Position numbers and translations under genes: made by a program. From Salpingoeca rosetta (taxonomy: Eukaryota; Opisthokonta; Choanoflagellata; Craspedida; Salpingoecidae): 64,000 nucleotides of DNA. Location: positions 334,969 to 398,968 of the forward strand of contig NW_004754924.1 of NCBI RefSeq assembly GCF_000188695.1, read 5' to 3'. How positions within the stretch are numbered: the first letter of the stretch is position 1; each line of letters opens with the position of its first letter. Below the pieces are notes generated by a model that ran no database searches, had not been told where the DNA came from, and was given only the letters and a program-made list of their open reading frames with translations. Positions 41,998 through 44,066 of this stretch are shown in pieces.

Positions 41998-42024
41998 CAG
42001 AGGATGACATCAGTGAGCGGAAAA
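41998..42024 (+). repeat. Left terminal inverted repeat of the transposon
   Basis: Begins CAGAGGATGACATC and matches the right end in inverted orientation with no mismatch over 27 bases (28 if the preceding A is counted). Read on the minus strand, the repeat and adjoining element sequence are open and in frame with the cupredoxin-PAN gene. Confidence 0.85.
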
Positions 42025-42177
42025 TCACATTAACGTGTTTGACGATTTATTTCGCCGTTCTCGACCACAGAGAACACGCTAAAAACCCCCTTTCCCTCAG
42101 CACAATTGACTACGGCACCCCACCCCACATCCACCCACCAAGTCACAATGAACCACACAACAGGCAAACCACTCACA

Positions 42178-43842
42178 CTAATCCTCGTCTTCATGTTCAC
42201 CCTCATCGTCGTCCTCGTCACTGTCCTCGTCACTGTCCTTGTCTTTGTCCTCGTTCACAACATCGACCTCTTCCATATTCTCATCATCATCATCACACTG
42301 CTCGTCATCGAACACCCCATCATCGATTGCCTCCTCATCCACCTCATCGAGGCTCGTGATCTGCCTGTAAAGCTCATCCAGCCGAGCATTTGCTTTTGCA
42401 ATGCATCCCTCAACTGTCTTCGGTGTCAGGGTTGCAAACGCCTCGTCCAACCGCTGGCGCACGTCCTTGAACGTTGTGTCGTAGTTGTACTGTCGACCAA
42501 CGTCTCCTTTCACGTTTGCCCAAACAATCTCGATGGGCTGAAGGTCGGAGTAATGCGGCGGTGTCCACAGCACCTCGTGCCCAGCGTCCTCTGCCATTTG
42601 CACGACGACGGGCTTGACTGTTTGTGCAATGTGGTCGCGCAGCCTGGCCCACAGCAAGGCCCGAGTGTCGGTGTCGGATACTGGCAGGCCGCGCGCCGTG
42701 CAGGCCTCGACCATGGCTGCCTTCTTCCATGATTGCTTGGGCGTGTCCGCTGGGAGTGACTTGTGGTACTTGGCGTTGTCCATGACAATGATGGTGTTTT
42801 TGATGCCACGGGCGTCGAGCGTGGCGAGCAGCGTCTGCATCCAGCGCTCAAAGTACGCACTGTCAAACATGCCATGGTAGTCTTTGGTCTGCGCCTTGCC
42901 ACTCTGCTTCTTGCCCCCCTCAAAGATGTCCAGCGTCTCGGGTAACAGCTGTGCACGATGTTCCTCGGATCGCTCTGCTTCTGGTACTGCAGGGTCGCTT
43001 GAGATGATTGCCGCGATGAAACAGAAGCGCCGGCCTTTGTGCTTTTGCTTGGGGAGCAGGCGGTTATCACCGGGGTCGTACAGCGACTCATCATGCCGGC
43101 GGTAGTGGTGGTGTATGTAGCTCTCGTCGAGGTAGACAATGCGTCGCCGCTGCTGTCGGGCCTTGATCATCTGGGTGATGTACGCGTCTCGTTTGATCAG
43201 CACCTCCTCCTTCTCCATGTAGGTGGTGCAACCGCCTCGCTGACCTCTCTCGTAGCCAAGGGACTCCAGGTATCGTTGCACAGCTCTCAGGGCGTTCGCT
43301 TTCGAAGTGGGATCAGAGTACATCGGCAGCACACCGGAGGAGCAGAAGAAGCCGAGCACGTCCTTTGCCACAGTTCGGTTGCCCTTGACAGTGCGCTCGT
43401 ACAACCAGTTCTGCAGCTTCACACGCAATGCCTCAGTGCGCTTGAACTTCGTCGTCTTGGTCCCGCGTGGCCCGTCGTTGTCTGCGACTGACACCGCTTG
43501 CGCGCGCTCGTAGTCCTTCCATGCTTGTTGACAGACGTCTGTGCTGCGCTGAAGGACGTTCTTTGCGAGTGCCGTGAACCGATACTGCTTGGGCCTCCCT
43601 GACTTGTTCGCGTTGACAAACTTCTCATGGCGAAAGTACGCCTGCACGGCGACGATGTCCAGCTTTGCGTCCACCGTCAGCGTCCTGGAGTTTTCCTTGC
43701 GCTGCTTCTTGAGCCACTTCTTGAAGGCGTCGTACTCCTCATTGTCAAGGCTCCCGGTGTACAATCGGCCTTCTTTCTTCTTGACACACGGCGGTGTTCC
43801 GTCAGTGCTGCCTGCTGCGGTGGCCGATCTGCGCTGCGCCAT
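42178..43842 (-). CDS. IS630/Tc1/mariner-type transposase, DD82E, apparently intact (554 aa)
   Basis: Intronless 554-residue frame. An N-terminal DNA-binding region rich in Lys/Arg precedes the DDE_3-type catalytic core: Asp239 in IVYLDESY, Asp355 in IIVMDNAKYH and Glu438 in SDLQPIEIVW. Exactly 82 residues lie between the second Asp and the Glu, far more than the 34-41 of classical Tc1/mariner enzymes. I recall a DD82E family in this superfamily being described (named Sailor, from memory). The C-terminus is a strongly acidic tail of about 60 residues (Asp/Glu-rich), outside the catalytic fold. No stop codons or frameshifts interrupt the frame, and all three catalytic residues are present, so it could encode active enzyme. 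Confidence 0.9.
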   Translation of the reverse strand: MAQRRSATAAGSTDGTPPCVKKKEGRLYTGSLDNEEYDAFKKWLKKQRKENSRTLTVDAKLDIVAVQAYFRHEKFVNANKSGRPKQYRFTALAKNVLQRSTDVCQQAWKDYERAQAVSVADNDGPRGTKTTKFKRTEALRVKLQNWLYERTVKGNRTVAKDVLGFFCSSGVLPMYSDPTSKANALRAVQRYLESLGYERGQRGGCTTYMEKEEVLIKRDAYITQMIKARQQRRRIVYLDESYIHHHYRRHDESLYDPGDNRLLPKQKHKGRRFCFIAAIISSDPAVPEAERSEEHRAQLLPETLDIFEGGKKQSGKAQTKDYHGMFDSAYFERWMQTLLATLDARGIKNTIIVMDNAKYHKSLPADTPKQSWKKAAMVEACTARGLPVSDTDTRALLWARLRDHIAQTVKPVVVQMAEDAGHEVLWTPPHYSDLQPIEIVWANVKGDVGRQYNYDTTFKDVRQRLDEAFATLTPKTVEGCIAKANARLDELYRQITSLDEVDEEAIDDGVFDDEQCDDDDENMEEVDVVNEDKDKDSDEDSDEDDDEGEHEDED

Positions 43843-44039
43843 CTTGGATGCAGAAAGTCGTTGGCATCAATGTGAATAATCGGCAATCCTGGAGGTAACA
43901 GGAAAAGATGGTTCTGTGCTTGCGCTCTGAGGTTTGCTGTCTTCGTTCTCTGTTGTGCGTGGGACAGCCAACGGAAAATGGAAGCGATTGACGCATATTT
44001 CGGGTGGTTTTGAATGTGTGCCGGTGATGAAAACTTATT

Positions 44040-44066
44040 TTTTCCGCTCACTGATGTCATCCTCTG
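44040..44066 (-). repeat. Right terminal inverted repeat of the transposon
   Basis: Reverse complement is identical to the left repeat over 27 bases. Followed outward by TCA, the same trinucleotide that precedes the left repeat. Confidence 0.85.

Follow-up and report, generated by a model that had tools for sequence, protein, structure and literature searches.

The locus and its element

The window, a 64,000-nucleotide stretch of the Salpingoeca rosetta genome (contig NW_004754924.1, positions 334,969 to 398,968 of the forward strand), carries at 41998-44066 an intact transposon with perfect 27-bp inverted termini and a single unbroken frame of 554 amino acids. The element is SrosTm, already described in the 2019 survey of S. 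rosetta transposable elements as 2071 bp long, with a 28-bp inverted repeat and no intron (Southworth et al. 2019, PMC6875170). The identification is based on length and repeat: a repeat finder places the inverted arms at 41997-42024 and 44040-44067 (28 nucleotides, 100% complementarity), and these arms span exactly 2071 bp. The outermost A and T of the arms are read here as target DNA, which leaves a terminus proper of 27 bp, CAG...CTG, identical at both ends and at the coordinates given in an earlier interpretation made from the letters only (the sequence-only reading). That reading also reported an unbroken transposase frame, and the minus-strand open reading frame at 42178-43842 indeed encodes 554 residues without a stop. 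The sole Pfam match of the protein at E ≤ 1 is DDE_3 (E 1.1e-14), and its best database match is the S. rosetta protein PTSG_03330 (P0001), listed with 100% identity over 100%, while two residue differences towards the C terminus are visible in the alignment. Conservation was assessed in alignment A2, in which the window protein is joined by 47 rows drawn from the 120 best of 170 database matches. The features are as follows.

41998..44066, minus strand: transposon SrosTm, window copy, 2069 bp excluding the target duplication, with the transposase on the minus strand
41995..41997, no strand: left copy of the probable 3-bp target-site duplication, TCA
44067..44069, no strand: right copy of the probable 3-bp target-site duplication, TCA
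41998..42024, plus strand: left 27-bp terminal inverted repeat, CAGAGGATGACATCAGTGAGCGGAAAA, identical in 9/9 genome termini
44040..44066, minus strand: right 27-bp terminal inverted repeat, from the repeat finder and the genome termini
42178..43842, minus strand: transposase open reading frame, 554 amino acids, DDE_3; same protein as PTSG_03330 (P0001) except for two residues of the C-terminal region
43258..43743, minus strand: N-terminal helical region, residues 34-195, probably two helix-turn-helix units, from AlphaFold2 helices, with a putative terminus-binding role
43126..43128, minus strand: codon of catalytic Asp239, invariant in alignment A2
42778..42780, minus strand: codon of catalytic Asp355, kept in 47/48 rows of A2
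42529..42531, minus strand: codon of catalytic Glu438, kept in 47/48 rows of A2
42580..42759, minus strand: insert between Asp355 and Glu438, residues 362-421, predicted helix-loop-helix (374-383, 394-408), SAP/LEM (HeH)-like

Genomic copies and target site

A genome-wide count of the terminus, as proposed in the sequence-only reading, was carried out on the genome containing the window (54.4 Mb in 49 contigs, the window copy being on contig C10). It gave four full-length copies (contigs C10, C7, C4 and C21); on C26, one more terminus lies next to a stretch of N. The nine genome termini all match at 27/27 bases, a reversed control pattern had no match, and no further terminus was found in the genome when up to three mismatches were allowed. 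The public gene model PTSG_09551 (P0002) suggests that the C26 copy carries a transposase gene too, where the assembly reads N. The copies on C10 and C7 both have 554-residue frames and are three substitutions apart over 2069 bp; the frame is broken in the C4 copy (5 substitutions and 11 gap columns against C10) and in the C21 copy (19 substitutions and one gap column). Such near-identical copies point to recent movement, in agreement with the recent insertion claimed earlier, and SrosTm has apparently been active recently. Misassembly is ruled out by the four full copies on separate contigs, together with the public gene model for the same protein. The 2019 survey gives 8-14 copies, four identical paralogues and 15,354 RNA-seq reads (PMC6875170).

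We then turned to the DNA beside the termini. Read outward from the CAG...CTG terminus, the nine readable flanks begin with TGA, TCA, TGA, TAA, TCA, TGA, TGA, TCA and TCA; T-N-A is thus present in 9/9, as compared with 3.9% of window positions, and in all nine a purine follows as the fourth base outward. These flanks argue strongly for TNA as the target of SrosTm. Both sides can be read at four sites, with the triplets TCA/TCA, TGA/TGA, TCA/TCA and, at C7, TCA/TAA, so that three of the four are identical. This is most simply explained by a 3-bp duplication, altered by a single later change at C7; support for the duplication is good, though the sites are few.

Several points weigh against this duplication. 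The C7 triplets are unlike each other, and with four two-sided sites the chance of middle-base agreement at three or more of them is, by our own rough estimate, about 6%. Moreover, no empty site was found in the element's own genome with queries taken from the flanks of the four full copies (130 bp per side) and from the right of the C26 terminus (150 bp), as nine of the ten matches were the queried places themselves and the other was a low-complexity stretch. The 2019 description, in which a target-site duplication was not identifiable in the 8-14 copies (PMC6875170), corresponds to the alternative that there is no duplication at all, the repeat being 28 bp or longer and T-N-A its variable outer edge. 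We regard this as improbable, even with the unlike triplets at C7 in its favor: a base that varies (C, G, A) just outside nine identical termini is more easily understood as part of the target than of the element, and three of four copies have the same base on both sides. As T and A are constant at the flanks, the repeat described in 2019 took in the flanking A and T, and the probable duplication was overlooked.

A second S. rosetta family with other termini, family D, likewise has TGA on both sides, which also speaks for a duplication. This element (3022 bp, C7:1413246-1416267, termini CAGGGGGCGACA) has a near-identical second copy on C32, where the sole readable side is again TGA. Against a simple 3-bp interpretation, the C7 copy of family D is flanked on both sides by the identical 8 bp TGATGTGA, an agreement that points either to insertion into a short repeat or to a longer duplication (3 to 8 bp). 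The TNA target is known so far from S. rosetta families only.

Catalytic spacing and the central insert

The catalytic residues of the transposase are Asp239, Asp355 and Glu438, the second and third of them separated by 82 residues, exactly as first noted from the letters. Among the 48 rows of A2, the spacing from the second Asp to the Glu is 82 in 29 rows, 83 in 11, 81 in six, and 80 and 85 in one each, and both residues are kept in 47 rows, the other having N and Q. An AlphaFold2 model of the protein (mean pLDDT, the predicted local distance difference test, 84.5) has a Mos1-type fold, with alignments to whole Mos1 starting at residues 42-58, and its N-terminal helices cover residues 34-51, 57-81, 89-97, 101-114, 137-153, 159-168 and 178-195.

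Between Asp355 and Glu438 lies an insert predicted to form a helix-loop-helix of the size of SAP/LEM (HeH) domains, and several methods, each with a weak score, point to a likeness to this class; the 2021 Sailor paper (PMC8533490) leaves the insert without an assigned function. Several observations stand against the resemblance. All Pfam matches of the insert fall under the curated cut-offs, the best being HeH in an animal relative (23.3 bits, cut-off 28.9), while the SAP score of the SrosTm insert is 11.9 (cut-off 23.9). Of the 18 Pfam families matched in the insert profile search, 14 are unrelated, and in a scan of animal inserts, run with no control, the unrelated HTH_27 (E 0.002) and STN1_2 (E 0.0021) rival most matches. 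SAP/HeH models matched in neither of two prokaryotic inserts. Structural comparison gave a best Foldseek E of 0.63, with unrelated entries at ranks 3-5, and VIA Z scores below 8 (50 chains aligned), where the unrelated lysyl-tRNA synthetase reached 5.0.

Relatives and classification

A profile scan of prokaryote genomes yielded ten loci, with both ends found in seven. Six of these seven (L043, L044, L045, L046, L049 and L051) have termini that start with G and TATA on both sides; L050 has a stop in frame, and TATA near its right end only, whereas one or both ends are missing in L047, L048 and L052. The long spacing is shared: 82-86 in 14/14 prokaryote-type rows (of which two do not differ over the columns of the tree, and one is from an uncultured archaeon) and 81-83 in 13/13 animal rows, the second Asp being lost in one, as compared with 31-36 in 7/7 IS630-type proteins encoded in the genomes where the ten loci lie. 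No relative was confirmed in IMG/VR.

The sequence-only reading had also called for a tree of the DDE_3 core. We built a first tree of 72 rows without animals and then a maximum-likelihood tree of 80 rows with the insert excluded, which omits P0014, P0073, P0082, P0099 and P0135; in both, SrosTm is the row P0001. The rows drawn on include 13 of 21 animal-named rows and seven of ten other translated DDE_3 loci; 'IS630' and 'animal Sailor' are labels given in this analysis, and named Tc1/mariner rows are not in the tree. The larger tree separates 73 DD82E rows from the seven IS630-type rows at 94/98, a branch that is not starred and carries a long-branch warning. It unites the prokaryotes (100/98) and the animals (93/93), and places SrosTm with protist and metagenome rows and three further S. 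rosetta families (100/99, stem 1.19). The main groups recur in the smaller tree, where support for the SrosTm lineage is 94/88. By the approximately unbiased test (p-AU), neither animals with prokaryotes (0.556) nor animals with the SrosTm lineage (0.365) was rejected, nor was any other order. In the 80-row tree, the SrosTm lineage (100/99) stands apart from the animal and prokaryotic DD82E proteins.

The earlier assignment to a DD82E member of the Tc1/mariner group stands in part. The DDE_3 core, the triad and the grouping with DD82E proteins held, and the SrosTm transposase is closest to DD82E (Sailor-type) transposases; the spacing of 82 and the lack of a TA flank do not fit a Tc1/mariner element. 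Regarding the IS630-Tc1-mariner (ITm) group, SrosTm has the DDE_3-type RNase-H domain with D, D and E, but TNA in 9/9 flanks in place of TA, the target stated for the group even though Sailor with TATA is included in it (PMC8533490). Tc1/mariner elements have 34-41 residues between the second D and the E or D, where SrosTm has 82. A lengthening of the catalytic domain in an otherwise classical Tc1/mariner element with a TA target would account for the Mos1-type fold, the DDE_3 domain and the CAG-type ends; we consider it very unlikely, given the flanks, the spacing and the position of SrosTm with DD82E proteins, away from IS630-type rows (94/98).

With respect to Sailor (DD82E), SrosTm has the signature, but TATA in 0/9 flanks and CAG in place of GT or CC ends. 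It could still be an ordinary Sailor element with a TATA target, seeming different only through the few copies known: the 82-residue spacing and insert type are the same, the tests reject none of the possible orders of the three DD82E lineages, and the prokaryotic L050, with its disrupted frame, has no TATA on one side. The absence of TATA from all nine SrosTm flanks, set against TATA on both sides in 6/7 two-ended prokaryotic elements with G-start termini, and the separate SrosTm clade (100/99) make this improbable. As its target differs, SrosTm is filed here under neither Tc1/mariner nor Sailor.

Two further superfamilies were rejected. PIF/Harbinger elements have a DDE_Tnp_4 domain and a 3-bp TWA duplication; SrosTm has only DDE_3 at E ≤ 1, and the triplets at its three matching sites are TCA and TGA. 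Zator/TP36 transposases are of Pfam PF07592 and make a 3-bp duplication, a length that would agree, though no PF07592 match was obtained at E ≤ 1.

The survey nested the SrosTm transposase among those of stramenopiles and proposed horizontal transfer from that group (PMC6875170), which the 80-row tree does not confirm: the smallest starred set with SrosTm has eight rows (96/85), and the six named oomycete rows are a separate subclade (100/93). P0006 and P0008, EukProt transcript proteins near SrosTm, would bear on this claim if choanoflagellate.

Other families and the insertion locus

Family D is DD82E-related (loci L019, L033, L020 and L032) and has a 542-residue open frame with polyglutamine and a CCHC zinc knuckle, the spacing before the Glu being widened to 135 by a low-complexity stretch; none of the seven DNA transposons tabulated in 2019 has its length (PMC6875170). 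The related S. rosetta families B, B2 and C (L015, L016, L018 and L017) have zinc knuckles, CxxCxxxGHxRxxCP, between the first and second catalytic Asp, two of them in tandem in the family B copy on C4. Families C and E showed no convincing inverted repeat apart from simple repeats.

The four left-end stretches of family B examined read N throughout. Nine right ends were found (L060-L068), seven of them readable, and the triplet that follows reads TCA in five, TGA in one and TGT in one; the end point was set by likeness to families A and D, and owing to its uncertainty family B is not counted for TNA. The bases directly outside CGTGTGTCGGGC fall, at the seven readable ends, into a few recurring classes, ACTATCACA three times and GCGATG twice; this would mean either tip differences among subfamilies or an unusually narrow target preference. 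The family B copy on C4 (L018, L025; C4:1822439-1826888) adjoins a cadherin-like coding region, as judged by eye; no second terminus was found for this copy, and the junction could reflect either truncation or fusion.

At the window locus, an open reading stretch continues across the joined flanks of the insertion (window 41860-41997 and 44070-44440), and the insertion may interrupt a host coding exon.

Proposed mechanism and comparison with known systems

Altogether, it is highly probable that SrosTm is a cut-and-paste, ITm-like transposon with a DD82E-related transposase, a TNA target cut with a 3-bp stagger, and an HeH-class insert in its catalytic core. By analogy with mariner transposases, the N-terminal helix-turn-helix units would bind the 27-bp termini and the DDE core would cut at CAG...CTG, excising the element, which would then enter a T-N-A triplet with a 3-bp stagger around the middle base, repair duplicating the triplet. 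The HeH-class helix-loop-helix would account for the greater part of the increase in spacing from the usual value of about 34 residues to 82 and, lying beside the active site, would most plausibly hold target or flanking DNA. The unit would not by itself set the stagger, since Sailor-type proteins share it and yet target TATA.

As to origin, we lean slightly towards a scenario in which DD82E arose when a SAP/LEM-like (HeH) domain entered a mariner-type core, the stagger diverging afterwards to 4 bp (TATA) in animal and bacterial Sailor and to 3 bp (Y-TNA-R) in a deeply branching lineage of protists, SrosTm among them. The length of the target site is a criterion in the classification of DNA transposons and depends on how the enzyme is arranged on the target; if this scenario is true, DD82E transposons would form a natural series on how an RNase-H transposase spaces its two cuts. 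An odd 3-bp target in a group taken as TA/TATA offers related enzymes of different stagger to compare, and the insert gains a testable role. With two intact-frame copies and reported expression (PMC6875170), SrosTm can be assayed directly.

Literature searches returned no paper joining DD82E with the SAP domain, or Sailor, transposase and SAP domain, and none joining IS630, 3-bp target-site duplication and mariner, and 'TNA target site' was in none of the eight papers listed for it; the search for SrosTm in full texts returned PMC6875170 only, and the main text of that paper contains neither DD8 nor DDE. As far as these searches show, the TNA target with its probable 3-bp duplication, the separate lineage placement and the HeH-like insert are new.

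Among known systems, the Mos1 mariner, SETMAR and Sleeping Beauty transposases have a spacing near 34 and a TA target, and no SrosTm-type insert is known in their structures. The SAP/LEM (HeH) domains of Hcc-1 (SAP), Tho1 and the C-terminus of T4 endonuclease VII are alike in being helix-loop-helices of the insert's size; they differ in that the scores are weak and the SrosTm unit lies within an RNase-H fold. Sailor elements, whose signature ranges from DD78E to DD111E and whose hosts include Anoplophora, also among our animal rows, and a choanoflagellate, share with SrosTm the 82-residue spacing, the DDE_3 core, a similar length of transposon with terminal inverted repeats and an insert at the same place, but they mostly duplicate TATA and usually end in GT or CC (Shi et al. 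2021, PMC8533490), whereas SrosTm has TNA, CAG ends and a separate clade. Finally, the published SrosTm agrees with the window element in host, in length with the flanking A and T, in the 28-bp repeat and in its intronless single transposase, and is the same family; to the description, which is without a target duplication (PMC6875170), the present analysis adds the TNA target, the 82-residue spacing and the HeH-like insert.
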